Source of the DNA: a bacterium
GTDB lineage: Bacteria > Calditrichota > Calditrichia > RBG-13-44-9 > J042
Direction of reading: 5' to 3'
Assembly: GCA_015485355.1 (NCBI GenBank)
Contig: WFTQ01000077.1
Span: 1-39,850, forward strand
Length of the DNA: 39,850 bases
Positions within the stretch are counted from its first letter, which is position 1. Every line of letters starts with the position of its first letter. The translations under genes were made by a program, and so were the position numbers. This document shows, piece after piece, positions 4,492 through 35,066 of this stretch. The notes under the pieces were generated by a model that was given only the letters and a program-made list of their open reading frames with translations, was not told where the DNA came from and did no database searches.

Positions 4492-5427
4492 TCACCCGTT
4501 CGGATTGTGGGCATTGCTCAGGGTGACGGCTCTGAGGATGGCCTGACTCACCATTTGGGCCGCTGTTTCGCCCAGTAAATTAATATCCGCGGTGTGATCG
4601 CCGGTACTCAGAGCAAACACCACATCGCCGTCGTACATGGTGTGGGCGGGGCGGGTGACCCGGGCAATGCCGTTCTGGGCCATCTGGGCCAGTTTGTTCA
4701 CCTGTTCCTTGGTGAGGCGGGCGTTGGTGGCCACCACCGCCAGGGTGGTATGGGTGCTGGACAAGGGTGTTCCCAGGCGCCCTTCCATCATGCAGCGCAG
4801 TGTGTCGGCGAATCCCTCACCGTCGGGTTCCCGGGCACCGGCAACAATCCGGCCGCTGTTGGGGTCAATGATGTCGCCCAGGGAGTTCACCACACACAGG
4901 GCTCCCAGGCGGGTTCCATCCGGTAATTCGGTCGCCACACTGCCCAAGCCTCCGGCCATGGCATGTTCCAGTCCCAGGATTTTGCCCACCGTCGCCCCGC
5001 GTCCCGCTCCAACCAGACCCTCCTCCACCGCCGTCGAAGCCGCCTGACAGGCCCGGTATCCCATTGCAGCGTCCGGAATTAGTGGATTCCGCTCCCCGCG
5101 AAGATCAAAAATGACCGCCGCCGGAACGATGGGAACAATGATTCCCCGGGCATTGTAGCCGATGTGTTGTTCCCAAAGGTATTGCATGACCCCGTCTGCA
5201 GTCCGCAGACCAAAAGCACTGCCTCCGGTCAACACCACGGCGTGTACCCGCTGGATTAGAAATCCAGGACGTAACAGATCGGTCTCCCGGGTTCCTGGTG
5301 CCGAGCCGCGGACATCGACCCCCGCTACCGCCCCCTGACGACAAAGAATCACCGTACATCCGGTGGCTTCCCGGGAATGGGTGGCATGTCCCACTTCAAT
5401 ACCAGGAACATCGGTGATCTTCAACAT
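4492..5427 (-). CDS. P1-family (S58/DmpA-NylC superfamily) peptidase
   Basis: Members of this N-terminal-nucleophile family self-cleave and then act as aminopeptidases or amide hydrolases. The 311-residue protein shows the family pattern: ITDVPGIEVGHAT at the start, GCTVILC, VLTGGSAFGL, then the autocleavage region THTTLAVVATNARL and TMYDGDVVFALSTG. By analogy with the NylC branch, where cleavage occurs between Asn and Thr, the nucleophile should be Thr227. The preceding residue is His226 instead of Asn. There is no signal peptide, so it is probably cytoplasmic. The frame is open further upstream, but the ATG at 5427 matches the family start and has GAGGTG 6 bases before it. A distant exported paralogue lies at 24030. 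The substrate is unknown. Confidence 0.88.
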   Translation of the reverse strand: MLKITDVPGIEVGHATHSREATGCTVILCRQGAVAGVDVRGSAPGTRETDLLRPGFLIQRVHAVVLTGGSAFGLRTADGVMQYLWEQHIGYNARGIIVPIVPAAVIFDLRGERNPLIPDAAMGYRACQAASTAVEEGLVGAGRGATVGKILGLEHAMAGGLGSVATELPDGTRLGALCVVNSLGDIIDPNSGRIVAGAREPDGEGFADTLRCMMEGRLGTPLSSTHTTLAVVATNARLTKEQVNKLAQMAQNGIARVTRPAHTMYDGDVVFALSTGDHTADINLLGETAAQMVSQAILRAVTLSNAHNPNG

Positions 5428-5775
5428 GCAAACACCTCGATTTTGAATTTGTCTTGCAGAATTTACAAAAAGAACGGCCGATAAGGGAGGTGAATTCCCA
5501 AAACTATGGGACAAGAGACGTCTTTGTGGTTAACGGCCCCCGCCTTGTCCGGCTTTCCGAATGATGGAAAGTGGGAACACGGTCGGTTTGGTCAATATCG
5601 AGGAATGATACTTGTCGGTTGAAAATGGAGTGCTTTTTTTATAGTTTAGGCAGTTCTAATGGGAAGATCCGAAACGATCTCGGACAGCGGCGGCAAGAAT
5701 CGTTGACCGATGTGAGCGGTTTTCCCACGAGTGGTCTTTTTCGCGGGAAATGAAGAAAAAAACGGATGATCATCC
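5428..5775. other. Divergent intergenic region
   Basis: These 348 bases separate the minus-strand P1 peptidase from the plus-strand dehydrogenase. No gene is supported. A possible weak plus-strand promoter is TTGAAA (5619-5624) with TATAGT (5640-5645), but its 15-base spacer is short. It would leave an untranslated leader of about 125 bases. The peptidase ribosome-binding site GAGGTG is at its left end. Confidence 0.4.
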
Positions 5776-23463: not shown

Positions 23464-24033
23464 TTGGACAGTGACTTCTTGAAAAATTCCTGGATTTTTA
23501 TTATCGGGTTTGCCCTGCAGGGGGAACCCATGCTGATTCTCTGGCTGCTTTATTTTTATGGCCATCCGGTGTATTGGGGGGTGATATTCGGTATTGCCTT
23601 ATTCATGTCTTATTTCACGGGTGTGGTGTATTATGTGCTGGGTAGATGGGCGCCCCAATTGGGCCGGCTGGACAAATGGTTGAATAAGTATCAGGATAAA
23701 TTTTCTTCTCGTATTCCCCGGCGGATGCCCGGACTGTTTCTAATCGCCATGAAATTTTTGTACGGTTTACGAAATCCCCTGGCCATTTACCTCGGCTATG
23801 TCCGATTTCCGGCAGGGCTGTTCTTGTTCTGGACTTTCTGGGGAACCCTGTTGTGGCTGGCCCTTTACTTTGCCGGCGTATACCTGATGGGGCTCTATTT
23901 TCACAAAGTGATTCAAACATATCGGTATGCCCTGTGGTATGTTTATGGTACCCTGCTGGTGATATGGAGCGGTTTTCAATTTAAAAAAATGTGGAAGAAG
24001 CGATCGTCGAATGATTTGGGAGGAGCATCATGA
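23464..24033 (+). CDS. DedA/SNARE-associated-type membrane protein
   Basis: A small integral membrane protein, 189 residues from TTG 23464. It has hydrophobic segments around IFIIGFALQGEPMLILWLL, WGVIFGIALFMSYFTGVVYYVLGRW, a re-entrant region with GLRNPLAIYLGYVRF, and two C-terminal spans. 'ALQGEP' and the 'R-x(n)-GLRNP...G' pattern resemble the DedA superfamily of lipid or undecaprenyl-phosphate flippases, but the match is loose. The frame is open back to 23380. That start would put the AT-rich inverted repeat inside the gene and lie 6 bases from the divergent start, so I prefer 23464 (GGGG at 23452-23455). Its stop overlaps the next ATG by 4 bases. Confidence 0.65.
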   Translation: MDSDFLKNSWIFIIGFALQGEPMLILWLLYFYGHPVYWGVIFGIALFMSYFTGVVYYVLGRWAPQLGRLDKWLNKYQDKFSSRIPRRMPGLFLIAMKFLYGLRNPLAIYLGYVRFPAGLFLFWTFWGTLLWLALYFAGVYLMGLYFHKVIQTYRYALWYVYGTLLVIWSGFQFKKMWKKRSSNDLGGAS

Positions 24034-25157
24034 GGCAGACTCTTTTCGCCTGCATGGTTCTGGCAGTTACGCTTTCTGCCCAATCGCTGTTGAACCACTG
24101 GCGTGAGTTGCAGGTGGGAATTTTGCCCACCGGCACCTGGAATGCCATTACCGATGTTCCCGGCGTTCGGGTGGGGCAGGTGACCCTCTGGGAGGGGGAG
24201 GACTGCCGCACAGGGGTGACGGTCATTCTTCCCCATTCGGGCAATCTGTTTCGGGAGAAGGTACCGGCCGCCGTTTATGTCGCCAATGGATTCGGAAAAC
24301 TGATGGGCATCTCCCAGATAGAAGAACTGGGCGTGATAGAAACCCCCATTGTTTTGACCAATACTCTGAGTGTGCCCGACGCGGCTCGAGGGGTCATCGA
24401 TTTTGTGTTACAACAGCCGGGTAACGAAGAGGTACGTTCTGTGAATCCCGTCGTGGGAGAAACCAACGATGGTCGTCTGAACAATATTCGGGCCCGGTAT
24501 GTCAGGCCGGAACATGTGTGGCGGGCCATCCGTGAAGCGCGTTCGGGGCCCGTTGCGGAGGGCAATGTGGGAGCGGGCACCGGCACGGTTTGTTTTGGGT
24601 TTAAAGGGGGAATTGGAACGGCTTCCCGAAAGCTACCGTCCGCTTTGGGGGGCTACACCGTGGGGGTGTTGGTGCAAAGCAATTTCGGGGGTATCCTGCA
24701 GATCAATGGAGCGCCGGTGGGGTTGGAATTGGAACAGTACTACCTGAAAAACCGTATCCATCCCCAACACGATGGATCCTGCATGATGGTTGTGGCCACC
24801 GATGCCCCCTTAAATGCCCGACAGTTAAAACGGCTGGCCAAACGGGCCGTTTATGGGTTGGTGCGAACCGGTGGTATTTCTTCTCACGGCAGCGGAGATT
24901 ACGTTATCGCCTTTTCCACTCGGAATCGGTTGACCCACCCGGTACCCGGACTCGAAGTGGAGCGGACCCTTCTGGCCGATGAACACCTGACCCCATTGTT
25001 TCAGGCGGTAATCGAGGCTACGGAGGAAGCCATCTATCATTCCCTGTTTGCGGCAAAGACCCTCACCGGATATCGGGGGCGACGGGTGGAGGCCTTGCCG
25101 TTGGAGAGGGTGGAGGCCATCTTAAAACAGTATAATGCGTTGCGTTATCGAAAATAA
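24030..25157 (+). CDS. Exported P1/DmpA-type aminopeptidase
   Basis: A 375-residue self-processing N-terminal-nucleophile peptidase (S58). A signal peptide (MRQTLFACMVLAVTLSAQS) sends it to the periplasm or outside. Motifs include ITDVPGVRVGQVTLW, GTGTVCFGFKGGIGT, YTVGVLVQSNFGG, and the cleavage site DGSCMMVVATDAPL. As in DmpA and BapA, Gly-Ser cleavage should free the nucleophile Ser. GSGDYVIAFST follows, as expected. DmpA-like enzymes release N-terminal residues, often D-Ala or beta-Ala, from short peptides. The ATG overlaps the DedA-like stop (ATGA) and has GGGAGGAG upstream, so the two genes are coupled. It differs in nucleophile and location from the cytoplasmic paralogue at 4492-5427. 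Confidence 0.92.
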   Translation: MRQTLFACMVLAVTLSAQSLLNHWRELQVGILPTGTWNAITDVPGVRVGQVTLWEGEDCRTGVTVILPHSGNLFREKVPAAVYVANGFGKLMGISQIEELGVIETPIVLTNTLSVPDAARGVIDFVLQQPGNEEVRSVNPVVGETNDGRLNNIRARYVRPEHVWRAIREARSGPVAEGNVGAGTGTVCFGFKGGIGTASRKLPSALGGYTVGVLVQSNFGGILQINGAPVGLELEQYYLKNRIHPQHDGSCMMVVATDAPLNARQLKRLAKRAVYGLVRTGGISSHGSGDYVIAFSTRNRLTHPVPGLEVERTLLADEHLTPLFQAVIEATEEAIYHSLFAAKTLTGYRGRRVEALPLERVEAILKQYNALRYRK

Positions 25158-30979: not shown

Positions 30980-33829
30980 ATGAACAGTTGGAACACGTTC
31001 AAACGCTGCTGGGGGATGCTCCTCTTGCTGCTTGTGGCCGGGGAATTTTCCCGCGTGCAGGGGCAGTGGTTTTATTTTGGGCGGAATAAGGTGCAGTATA
31101 CCGAATTCCGCTGGCATATCCTGAAAACGCGCCATTTCGATATTTATTATTATCCCGAAATGGAAGAGTTGGCCGAACAGGGGGCCTTTTTTGCAGAACA
31201 GAGCTACAAATATCTGGAAAATAAATTCAACTTCACCATTCGTCGGCGGATTCCCCTGATCTTTTACAGTTCTCATCTGCATTTTCAACAGACGAATGTG
31301 ACCCCGGGCTTTATTCCCGAGGGCGTGGGGGGCTTTTTTGAGTTCCTGAAGGGTCGAGTCGTGATTCCGGCGAACGGCAGCCTGAATCAGTTTCGTAAGG
31401 TCATCCAGCACGAACTCGTTCATGTGTTTATGCATAGTAAAGTCTATTTTGCCAATAAAGAGCATGGCCGTTACGATGCCACCTATCCGCCCCTCTGGTT
31501 TGTCGAAGGATTGGCCGAATACTGGTCATCGGAATGGGATGCTCAGGCGGAAATGGTTATCCGGGATGCGGTGTTGAATAATTATATCGTCCCTCTTTCG
31601 CAAATGTACCGCATTTCCGGTTCGTACCTGATGTACAAAGAAGGGCAGGCCATTTTGTCTTATATTGCAGAAAAGTTTGGAGAAGAAACGATCCTGTTGC
31701 TGCTGGAGGATATCTGGAAGTACAGCAAATTTTCTCAGGTGTTCGAACATGTACTGGGGATAAGCTATGAAGAATTCGATCGCCTGTGGCTCTACGATCT
31801 GCGGAAAAAATATTATCCGTTGCTGAAGGATCACGATTTTTCCAGCATGATTACCGAGACGATTGTGAAAGAAGGCTATAATTTTAAACCGGCCTTTTAT
31901 CCATCGCCGGAGGGGAAAAAATTGGTTTTTGTGGCCAATCGCACGGGGTACACGAACATTTATCTAACCGATTTACGGCCTCTGAAATTTGACGAAAAAG
32001 AGAAGGTCAAGGTGCTGATTAAAGGGGAACGTAGTTCGGAGTTTGAGGCTTTTCACCTCTTTTCCAGTAAGATTGATGTCTCCCGGAATGGGCGGCTGGC
32101 TTTTTCCACCAAAAGCGGAGAAAACGATGCCCTGTATATTTTTGACCTCGAACAGGAAGAGATCATCCGGAAATTTCAATGGCCCGATATCGTGGGAATT
32201 TCTTCGCCCGCTTTTTCTCCGGATGGTAAGAAAATTGTTTTCAGCGGACTGCAATTTGGGGGGCGGAAAGACCTTTTTCTGGTGGATTTGAAACGGGAGG
32301 AATTGATCCAGCTGACCAATGATCTTTACGAAGACAATGCCCCTTCCTTTTCCCCGGATGGAAAAAAGATTGTCTTTTCCTCGGATCGAACCCTTTGGGG
32401 GCCTCAATGGAGCTATAACATCTTCGTGTACGATCTGGAGAGCCATTTGATTTATTATGTGACCTCGGGAAAACACCAGGACTTTACGCCGGTCTGGTCA
32501 CCCGATGGGAAGTATATCGCCTTCACCTCGGACCGGGATTCGTCCTTAAACATCTGGCTGGCCGATTTGTCTCAAATAGGGGAATGGGATGGCGATGCTT
32601 ACCGCCGTATATCGGTCAAACAGGTCTCCTGGTTTGCCAATGCCGCCTTCGATCCCGAATGGGTGGGCACCGATCAGCTGGTCTTTTCGGTGTATGAGAA
32701 CAATCGTTTTCAGATTCGCCGGATGAAGCATATTCGGAAACGGTTTGAAGCATCGACTCGGTCCCGACCCAATGTCCCCATCCGCCATGCCCTCCACTGG
32801 CAACCGGGCAAAATAGCCGGAGACAAGGTGTTGGCCAAATTGCGCTATAAAAAGAAATATGATCTGGATATCGCCCAAACCCAGGTCAGTCAGGATCCTT
32901 TCTGGGGAACCAGCGGGGGGGCGTTGTTATCGTTTACCGATGTACTGGGCAACGATCAGTATTATATACTGCTGTACAACAACGCGCAATCCCGGAGCGA
33001 CTTTTTGCGCAGTTTCAATGTGGCCGTAACCAAACTTTCCCTGGAAAAACGGACCAATTACGGCTACGGCCTTTTTCGATTTGCCGGCCGATATTTCAAT
33101 TTCAAGGACGGCTTTTTTTATGAGGAACGGACCGGCGCCTTTTTTACCATCAGTTACCCTTTTTCTCAGTTTAAGCGGCTGGAATTCAACGCCAATTTCA
33201 GTTACTCCGATAAAGATTTCCTGGGTTTCCGGAGACGTTTTGCTTATCTTTCTTCCAACTGGTTGACCTTTATACACGACAATTCCATCTGGTCGTATAC
33301 GGGACCCATCGATGGGAGCCGGTTCAATATTACCATCGGCAATACTTTCGATGTGCGCTGGTCGAATGTGAATTATTACACCCTGCTACTGGATTATCGG
33401 TATTACTATCGGTTGCATCCCAAACTAACCTATGCCATCCGCTTATTGACCCTCTGGAACGACGGTAAAGAAACCCGCTGGTTTTACCTGGGTGGCAGCT
33501 GGGATTTGCGCGGGTATCCCCAATGGTCCATTCGGGGCGAAAAGATCGTCTTTATGTCCCACGAACTGCGATTTCCTTTTATCGATTATCTGGGAATCCG
33601 TTTTCCCTTCGGAGGGTTAGGGTTCCATGCCATACGGGGCGCTTTGTTTGTGGACGCCGGCAATGCCTGGAATGATCGCTGGAACGGCCTGTTGGGCAGC
33701 TTGGGAATGGGGCTGCGGGTCAACCTGGGCGGATTCCTGGTGCTGCGCCTGGATATTGGCCGACGAACCGATTTCCGGAAATTTACCTCCAGCTGGTTTA
33801 CCCAGTTTTTCTTTGGATGGGATTTTTAA
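30980..33829 (+). CDS. Zincin-TolB propeller-Omp85 barrel fusion protein
   Basis: A 949-residue exported protein with three modules in one chain. After a signal peptide (cleaved near VQGQ, residue 29) comes a zinc-protease-like region with H144ELVH and the likely third ligand Glu176 in FVEGLAEY, resembling the M1/peptidase_MA type. Then PD40/TolB-type propeller repeats, residues about 300-530 (FSPDGKKIVFS, WSPDGKYIAFTSDRD). From about 650 to the end is an Omp85-like barrel: GGSWDLRGYPQ, later ALFVDAGNAWN, and a final Phe (FFGWDF). Soluble domains should lie in the periplasm and the barrel in the outer membrane. I infer a self-contained export or membrane-assembly device, or a barrel-anchored protease. 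The BamB-like gene starts 13 bases after the stop. Confidence 0.82.
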   Translation: MNSWNTFKRCWGMLLLLLVAGEFSRVQGQWFYFGRNKVQYTEFRWHILKTRHFDIYYYPEMEELAEQGAFFAEQSYKYLENKFNFTIRRRIPLIFYSSHLHFQQTNVTPGFIPEGVGGFFEFLKGRVVIPANGSLNQFRKVIQHELVHVFMHSKVYFANKEHGRYDATYPPLWFVEGLAEYWSSEWDAQAEMVIRDAVLNNYIVPLSQMYRISGSYLMYKEGQAILSYIAEKFGEETILLLLEDIWKYSKFSQVFEHVLGISYEEFDRLWLYDLRKKYYPLLKDHDFSSMITETIVKEGYNFKPAFYPSPEGKKLVFVANRTGYTNIYLTDLRPLKFDEKEKVKVLIKGERSSEFEAFHLFSSKIDVSRNGRLAFSTKSGENDALYIFDLEQEEIIRKFQWPDIVGISSPAFSPDGKKIVFSGLQFGGRKDLFLVDLKREELIQLTNDLYEDNAPSFSPDGKKIVFSSDRTLWGPQWSYNIFVYDLESHLIYYVTSGKHQDFTPVWSPDGKYIAFTSDRDSSLNIWLADLSQIGEWDGDAYRRISVKQVSWFANAAFDPEWVGTDQLVFSVYENNRFQIRRMKHIRKRFEASTRSRPNVPIRHALHWQPGKIAGDKVLAKLRYKKKYDLDIAQTQVSQDPFWGTSGGALLSFTDVLGNDQYYILLYNNAQSRSDFLRSFNVAVTKLSLEKRTNYGYGLFRFAGRYFNFKDGFFYEERTGAFFTISYPFSQFKRLEFNANFSYSDKDFLGFRRRFAYLSSNWLTFIHDNSIWSYTGPIDGSRFNITIGNTFDVRWSNVNYYTLLLDYRYYYRLHPKLTYAIRLLTLWNDGKETRWFYLGGSWDLRGYPQWSIRGEKIVFMSHELRFPFIDYLGIRFPFGGLGFHAIRGALFVDAGNAWNDRWNGLLGSLGMGLRVNLGGFLVLRLDIGRRTDFRKFTSSWFTQFFFGWDF

Positions 33830-33842
33830 ATCACAATGTTGT

Positions 33843-35066
33843 ATGAGGATTTTTTCGAGAAATACAGCCCTGCATGCAGGCGGGGGCACCCCCTGGCCGT
33901 ATAGGCGGATCAGTGTTATCGGTCTGCTGGCCGGGATGGTTTTAGGGTTGGCGTGTGCTGGATTGATCCCGCTTCCCGTGCCGCCCGCCGGTCGTTTGAA
34001 TGACCCGGACGCCTGGTTAATGCTGGGCAAAAATGAGGCGCATCATCATTCGGTGCGGCGCAATGTCCCCCCACCCATTGCGCTCGTCTGGAAGCAACGG
34101 CTGAATTCCGTCATCCCGGATCATCCCCTGGCCTTCGAGGGAAATATCATCGCCCCTTTACGGAATGGGAATCTGACTATCCTTTCTCTGGAACGCCGGG
34201 AGATGCTGGCCATGGATCGGATTGGCCCGGCAATGGCCCACACTCCCAGTATTCATCTCCCTTTTCTGTATGCCGGCTTTAATCTGGGGAACCATACATT
34301 GATGGCGCTGAATTTACGGAATGCCGAACAGGAATATCGTCGCCGCTATGGAGAGGTGTTAACGGCGCCGATTTACTGGGAACGAAAATTGTATTTTGGC
34401 ACCCGGACCAAACGGATGTACTGCGTGAACGCCGGCAGTGGGGATTCGGTCTGGAGTTTTCCGGCCCGGGCAGCCATTCATGCTTCCCCGGCCGTCCGGA
34501 ATCCTCTGGTGGTGTTCGCGGATATCAAAGGCTATGTGTATGGCCTGGATGTCTCCTCGGGAATCCCGTTCTGGGAAAGGCGTCTGAACGGCGCCGTATT
34601 TTCTCACCCCGTTCTGGACGATTCCACCGTGTATGTGGGAACCGTAATGGGTACTCTGTATGCTCTGGATCAACGGACCGGAGCCGTACGCTGGGAAAGA
34701 CAATTGGGCGGTTCCCTATACAGCAGCCCTTCTCTTTTTCAAAAATATTTATATATCGGTTCCAATGGGAACGAGGTGGTGGCGCTTCGCAAGACGGAGG
34801 GCACGGTTGTATGGCGCTTTTCAACCCAAGGCATTGTCAATACGGTTCCCTTGAGCAGTCCCGACTACGTCTACGTGGGCAGCTGGGACGCCAATTTGTA
34901 TATTCTGAATCGTTATACCGGCAAACTGGTCTTCAAACAGACCCTGAACGGGGCGATTAAGAGTTCCCCGATCATTTATCGAAATTATTTGATTGTCCAT
35001 TCGGCCAATAAACATTTGTGGATATTTGTTACCGAAAAATTAGCTCGGGAGATGCAAGACCTATGA
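33843..35066 (+). CDS. BamB-like PQQ-repeat beta-propeller protein
   Basis: A 407-residue exported protein with repeated PQQ-type blades: 'SGIPFWERRLNGAVFSHPVL', 'VYVGTVMGTLYALDQRTGAV' and 'LYIGSNGNEVVALRKTEGTV' are the typical 'Y-G-x(n)-G-x-x-W' pattern. BamB in E. coli scaffolds the Omp85 protein BamA; this gene follows an Omp85-like fusion, so a similar partnership is inferred. A hydrophobic N-terminus (VIGLLAGMVLGLACAGL) carries a Cys with a weak lipobox. The start is uncertain: the frame is open upstream into the previous gene, ATG 33843 gives the signal peptide, but no ribosome-binding site is visible. The PEGA gene overlaps its stop by 4 bases. Confidence 0.8.
   Translation: MRIFSRNTALHAGGGTPWPYRRISVIGLLAGMVLGLACAGLIPLPVPPAGRLNDPDAWLMLGKNEAHHHSVRRNVPPPIALVWKQRLNSVIPDHPLAFEGNIIAPLRNGNLTILSLERREMLAMDRIGPAMAHTPSIHLPFLYAGFNLGNHTLMALNLRNAEQEYRRRYGEVLTAPIYWERKLYFGTRTKRMYCVNAGSGDSVWSFPARAAIHASPAVRNPLVVFADIKGYVYGLDVSSGIPFWERRLNGAVFSHPVLDDSTVYVGTVMGTLYALDQRTGAVRWERQLGGSLYSSPSLFQKYLYIGSNGNEVVALRKTEGTVVWRFSTQGIVNTVPLSSPDYVYVGSWDANLYILNRYTGKLVFKQTLNGAIKSSPIIYRNYLIVHSANKHLWIFVTEKLAREMQDL

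Follow-up and report, generated by a model that had tools for sequence, protein, structure and literature searches.

A predicted outer-membrane protein uniting a gluzincin, a TolB-like propeller and an Omp85-type barrel: a candidate assembly component of the FCB group

Outer-membrane assembly outside the Proteobacteria is poorly understood, and the Bacteroidota BAM complex, solved only in 2025, proved to be very different (PMC12611786). A 39,850-nt stretch of DNA from a Calditrichota bacterium (GCA_015485355.1, contig WFTQ01000077.1, forward strand), here called the window, contains an open reading frame at 30980-33829 (+) for a protein of 949 residues that includes H144-E-L-V-H148, E176 and a terminal F949. 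A sequence-only reading had reported this length and these residues correctly, and had proposed that a zincin, a TolB propeller and an Omp85 barrel are fused in the one chain. This raises the question of what a barrel that carries its own protease and propeller does in the envelope. Here, we examine the architecture, the neighbouring genes and the relatives of the protein, and weigh the functions that they suggest.

Domain architecture of the 949-residue protein

Pfam, AlphaFold2 and Foldseek all bear out the proposed fusion. In Pfam the domains follow one another as Peptidase_MA_2, PD40 and Omp85, and an AlphaFold2 model of the full chain, built with 35 homologues, has a mean pLDDT of 83.3 and a pTM of 0.80. 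Structure prediction had been set beforehand as the test of the fusion, and the model has 16 long strands over residues 627-947 that match BamA barrels. Searched against the PDB with Foldseek, the full model retrieves TolB (E 1e-10) and BamA barrels (E 7e-9); these matches were ranked by E-value and probability and not by TM-score, given that each spans one domain only and full-length TM-scores are therefore low for a query of this length. The coordinates of all features are collected in Table 1.

The N-terminal domain scores 28.8 bits with Peptidase_MA_2 (PF13485) at residues 132-270, below the cut-off of 32.4, and a paralogue in the same genome (type B, see below) exceeds the cut-off with 36.0. 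Modelled alone (pLDDT 82.6), the domain matches collagenase peptidase domains, M1 aminopeptidases and M61 in the PDB with a probability of 1.0 and a best E-value of 2.6e-4; these are gluzincins, and HELVH is thus not far from a zincin fold. No M48 peptidase profile matches the protein in Pfam at E-values up to 1. All 59 distinct N-terminal domains collected keep HExxH intact, as do the paralogues of types B and C, which argues that selection has maintained catalysis and not just a relic fold. The zincin is therefore apparently catalytically intact as judged from its residues, and a pseudoenzyme is ruled out.

Two further stretches of the N-terminal part are highly conserved. The segment of residues 29-45 is kept in all 35 aligned homologues, Acidobacteria included, and this G[RK]NKVQY-type segment and the loop of residues 102-123 are invariant or nearly so in relatives. 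Both have low-confidence parts in the monomer model, with low pLDDT over residues 20-34 and values <50 over residues 105-123. Because this pattern is frequent among segments that bind a partner or substrate, residues 29-45 are a candidate partner-binding segment and the mobile loop is a candidate lid or substrate loop.

The propeller is nearest to TolB in sequence and fold, although its score with TIGR02800 (TolB) is 122.6 bits, far from the equivalog cut-off of 343. It is the least conserved part of the chain, and the N-terminal zincin part is the most conserved. PF01103 (Omp85) matches the barrel with 38.6 bits at residues 677-930, over the cut-off of 24, whereas TIGR03303 (BamA) reaches 26.7 bits against a cut-off of 297. 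No NCBIfam equivalog cut-off is reached by the protein, and the Omp85/BamA matches there are weak. Pfam finds neither a POTRA nor a patatin domain in it, and in the model the part preceding the barrel consists of the zincin and the propeller. In the alignment, R844 of the LRGY motif is invariant, and G845 is replaced by Leu in several relatives. Across 35 homologues from several phyla the invariant residues are H144, E145, H148, E176, R844, G946, W947 and F949, which, together with the intact HExxH motifs, indicates that the architecture is not a chance occurrence.

Table 1 Features of the barrel gene, its protein and the two genes that follow, with positions in the window
Feature	Residues	Positions	Strand	Basis or remark
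Signal peptide	1-28	30980..31063	+	Hydrophobic N-terminal helix, residues 2-20; conservation starts at Q29
N-terminal segment (Q..FGRNKVQY..F.W)	29-45	31064..31114	+	Invariant yet unstructured
Gluzincin (Peptidase MA-like) domain	46-283	31115..31828	+	Peptidase_MA_2 and PDB fold matches
Loop (starts FQQTNVTPGFIPEGVGGFFEF)	102-123	31283..31348	+	Near-invariant columns; directly before edge strand and active-site helix
Zinc-binding motif H-E-L-V-H	144-148	31409..31423	+	HExxH intact in 59/59 relatives
Predicted third zinc ligand (W-F-V-E-G-L-A-E)	176	31505..31507	+	Invariant
TolB-like beta-propeller	about 293-583	31856..32728	+	PD40 E 3e-30; TolB structures E 1e-10
16-stranded Omp85-type barrel	627-949	32858..33826	+	PF01103, strand count and BamA-barrel matches
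LRGY, counterpart of VRGF/Y motif in Omp85 loop 6	843-846	33506..33517	+	Alignment
C-terminal strand end F-F-G-W-D-F with terminal Phe		33809..33826	+	G946, W947 and F949 invariant
BamB-like PQQ-repeat propeller protein, 407 aa		33843..35066	+	PF13360, 130 bits; predicted lipoprotein (GLACAG)
PEGA-domain protein, 254 aa		35063..35827	+	PF08308, 41.9 bits; signal peptide and C-terminal hydrophobic hairpin

Operon, distribution and paralogues

The barrel gene is the first of a three-gene module, followed by a gene for a BamB-like lipoprotein and a gene for a PEGA-domain protein; this operon and two paralogues of the barrel protein are additions to what the sequence-only reading had seen. The best NCBIfam match of the BamB-like partner is TIGR03300 (BamB) with 110.3 bits, below the equivalog cut-off of 285.2, and both the window copy and most relatives have a lipobox-like Cys behind a hydrophobic stretch. 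By BLAST, a BamB-like homologue follows the barrel gene in 23 relatives, and a neighbour profile detects it with 262-428 bits in 19 of 20 further Bacteroidota/Calditrichota loci that lay outside profile building (L059 and L061-L079, with L074 the sole exception). The adjacency is conserved across Calditrichota, Bacteroidota/Ignavibacteria/Chlorobi and Marinimicrobia; three loci of the Ignavibacteria type (L023, L024 and L034) and the Acidobacteria lack it. That gene order is kept across phyla at a protein identity of about 45% goes far beyond chance adjacency and indicates a functional link between the two genes. In most loci a start codon of the BamB-like gene overlaps the stop of the barrel gene; in the window the start of the PEGA gene overlaps the stop that precedes it (ATGA). 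The third-gene position and the C-terminal hairpin are conserved in relatives, the hairpin even where PEGA is undetectable. In many relatives, L021, L022, L025 and L029 among them, the codons for the terminal GWDF of the barrel contain a start codon of the BamB-like gene, such that the end signal of the barrel and the start of the next gene share sequence (window positions 33809-33870 and those four relatives).

A scan of GTDB genomes recovered 39 loci, all full length except one partial match, with identities of 42-92% in Calditrichota, Ignavibacteria, Chlorobi and Marinimicrobia and of about 26% in Acidobacteria. Full-length relatives in many independent assemblies and a phylum-wise grouping in the tree rule out a recent lateral gene or an assembly chimera. 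Matches of type A or B are present in 36/36 Calditrichota genomes, in all 61 Marinimicrobia genomes (mostly through type B, and including genomes of 0.8-1.0 Mb), in 144 of 248 Bacteroidota genomes (about 60 of them by type A) and in 56 of 119 Acidobacteriota genomes. The earlier expectation of uncharacterised relatives in FCB genomes was therefore right and understated, given that every Calditrichota and Marinimicrobia genome surveyed carries the family. Four streamlined Marinimicrobia genomes of 0.8-1.0 Mb (G471, G417, G436 and G444) retain type B, a hint of essentiality. Two loci come from bins labelled Ectothiorhodospiraceae and Caldisericaceae (L015 and L018), with a sequence and operon of the Bacteroidota/Calditrichota type; because both sequences fall within the Bacteroidota and Calditrichota groups in the tree, these bin labels are suspect and probably wrong. 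Neither the barrel protein nor its BamB-like partner has a PADLOC match, and a role in anti-phage defence was set aside.

The genome of the window encodes three proteins of zincin-propeller-barrel architecture (types A, B and C), of which the 949-residue protein is type A. Type B (G000:C72) has 1041 residues and is 41% identical over residues 31-472; type C, encoded on the same contig as type B, has 1081 residues and is found in 33 of 33 Calditrichota genomes. In a tree of 81 sequences, made by a quick method without bootstrap and with a very long type C branch, type A (SH-aLRT 99) is separate from type B (100). Both clades hold Calditrichota, Marinimicrobia and Bacteroidota members that are largely grouped by phylum, and some Acidobacterial and divergent sequences that had been pre-labelled type B fall outside the B clade. 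This grouping fits an A/B duplication that preceded the split of these phyla and was followed by vertical descent, and both types appear to predate the divergence of the FCB phyla. The gene directly upstream of type C belongs to the family of T9SS-dependent M6-like inactivated metalloproteases (NF052323) in 11/11 Calditrichota loci, these being the loci with enough upstream sequence among L048:222-6460, the relatives L115-L127 and G000:C72. Type C may thus serve T9SS cargo.

A canonical BamA is encoded as a separate gene, over cut-off, in the genome of the window and in 12 of the 13 genomes tested, which rules out that the zincin-propeller-barrel protein replaces BamA. None of ten genomes has a BamB over the strict cut-off, and one of the genomes (G017) has no BamB-like match other than the operon partner.

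Relation to known systems

The sequence-only reading knew of no characterised protein with this order of domains. This holds for function, given that our search of open-licence papers, in which a subscription paper could be missed, retrieved no experimental study of any family member. It does not hold for the combination of propeller and barrel, for which Heinz and Lithgow defined a 'WD40-Omp85' subfamily in 2014, likened to a BamA-BamB fusion and functionally uncharacterised there (PMC4104836). The likeness lies in a WD40/TolB-like propeller N-terminal to an Omp85 barrel and the lack of POTRA, a domain that is typical of Omp85 proteins but absent from several of the subfamilies of 2014. PF00149 is a metallophosphatase family. 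It is the family that defines the 'metalloprotease' subfamily in the 2014 paper, the main text of which mentions no zincin in WD40-Omp85 proteins (PMC4104836). That main text also describes the subfamilies apart from BamA, TamA and Lipo as conserved no further than the genus, whereas types A and B are phylum-wide and old. Measured against the main text of 2014, what is new is the protease domain, the operon, the phylum-wide core status and the three-way paralogy.

With BamA the protein shares a 16-stranded Omp85 barrel and the LRGY motif, and a gene for a BamB-like propeller lipoprotein adjoins it as a counterpart of BamB in the BAM complex; it differs from BamA in having no POTRA, in carrying a zincin and a TolB-like propeller and in being encoded alongside a canonical BamA. 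The BAM complex of Flavobacterium johnsoniae (BamADGHMP) is likewise an FCB outer-membrane assembly machine with lineage-specific subunits, and its BamA also has LRGY, although the added subunits are different proteins and the paper mentions neither BamB nor a propeller (PMC12611786). BepA resembles the protein in pairing an HExxH zincin with an interaction domain and in its proposed action at an outer-membrane assembly barrel. However, the zincin here is of another peptidase family than M48, is covalently part of the barrel and is combined with a propeller instead of TPR. PlpD, a patatin-Omp85 protein, is also a single chain in which an enzyme domain precedes an Omp85 barrel, but it combines patatin with POTRA, whereas the chain described here combines a zincin with a propeller and is a phylum-wide core protein of FCB phyla. 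Unlike TolB, the propeller is not free in the periplasm.

Possible functions

The three-domain chain, its operon with BamB-like and PEGA genes and the BamA encoded alongside are computed observations; topology, complex formation, substrates and proteolysis we infer from them. The reading we favour, tentatively and with somewhat less than even confidence, is that the type A protein is the core subunit of an uncharacterised module for assembly or quality control at the outer membrane, ancestral in the FCB group. The barrel would span the outer membrane, its zincin and propeller facing the periplasm, and the periplasmic enzyme domain of PlpD is a precedent that makes such an arrangement on an Omp85 barrel possible (PMC11116518). 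The protein's own propeller and the BamB-like lipoprotein would capture clients near the barrel seam, these being outer-membrane proteins or lipoproteins that are unfolded or have stalled. The zincin would cleave failed clients or trim precursors, as BepA does for LptD on the E. coli BAM, where it acts on BAM-engaged LptD (PMC8423444, PMC7950410). The PEGA protein, if anchored in the inner membrane, would tether the module across the periplasm. The whole would amount to a BAM-type machine with a built-in BepA-type protease.

Presence in all Calditrichota and Marinimicrobia genomes surveyed, even those of 0.8-1.0 Mb, is what is expected of envelope housekeeping. With this distribution, and with its protease, propeller and assembly-type barrel joined in a single chain beside a BamB-like operon partner, the family makes a strong candidate for a missing core component of outer-membrane assembly. 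The conserved partner also lends weight to the earlier suggestion that the protein could pull, trim or insert substrates, which is plausible. Against the favoured reading, the separate BamA already provides insertion as such, the modelled zincin resembles collagenases, M1 and M61 most closely and not the M48 family of BepA, POTRA domains are absent and the partner stays below the BamB equivalog cut-off. The family may cover more than one role, given that Acidobacteria have no adjoining partner gene and that type C comes with a T9SS-type exported protein.

A more far-reaching version, possible though on balance unlikely, makes the module an ancestral and probably essential second outer-membrane machine of the FCB group, apart from BAM. 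Its barrel, protease and propeller, BamB-like lipoprotein and PEGA tether would unite barrel assembly with proteolytic quality control and a link across the envelope, with types A, B and C for different substrate classes and type C for T9SS cargo.

Alternatively, the barrel could be an anchor only, from which a PlpD-like enzyme matures or sheds specific envelope proteins, be they lipoproteins, S-layer or T9SS cargo, within the periplasm. The propellers would then serve as exosites, and the protein would have no part in insertion or general quality control. PlpD is a precedent for a periplasmic enzyme on an Omp85 barrel (PMC11116518), three paralogues per genome suggest distinct substrates and the M6-like gene precedes type C in every locus with sufficient upstream sequence. 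We nevertheless consider anchored maturation rather unlikely, given that the BamB-like neighbour of type A points to barrel assembly and not to one substrate and that types A and B are very widely distributed.

It is improbable that the protein substitutes for TolB, its barrel-borne propeller linking outer membrane, peptidoglycan and inner membrane at division, with PEGA in place of the TolA/Pal partners and the zincin as an accessory. None of eight FCB genomes tested has a standalone TolB over cut-off, while an Acidobacteria genome (G045) has one, and both the resemblance of the propeller to TolB and the predicted inner-membrane anchor of the neighbour would suit such a role. However, the TIGR02800 score is far under the equivalog cut-off, Bacteroides in the control list likewise lacks TolB, Acidobacteria hold both proteins and conservation is concentrated in the zincin part instead of the propeller. 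The type V order of N-terminal passenger and C-terminal barrel and the likeness to secreted collagenase peptidase domains would point to a barrel that exports zincin and propeller to the surface, where they act as an extracellular protease. This is likewise improbable, given that PlpD, the model for it, keeps its enzyme domain in the periplasm (PMC11116518) and that retention in genomes of 0.8-1.0 Mb and a BamB-like neighbour are ill-suited to a secreted protease.

Being widespread, apparently catalytically intact and accompanied by a BAM-like partner, this uncharacterised envelope protein lends itself directly to experiment. The family also offers a way of finding out whether Omp85 barrels can have a quality-control protease of their own. 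Elsewhere in the window, the starts of two further open reading frames, at 4492-5514 (-) and 24030-25157 (+), resemble P1/DmpA-type aminopeptidases (DVPGIEVGHAT... and DVPGVRVGQVT...).
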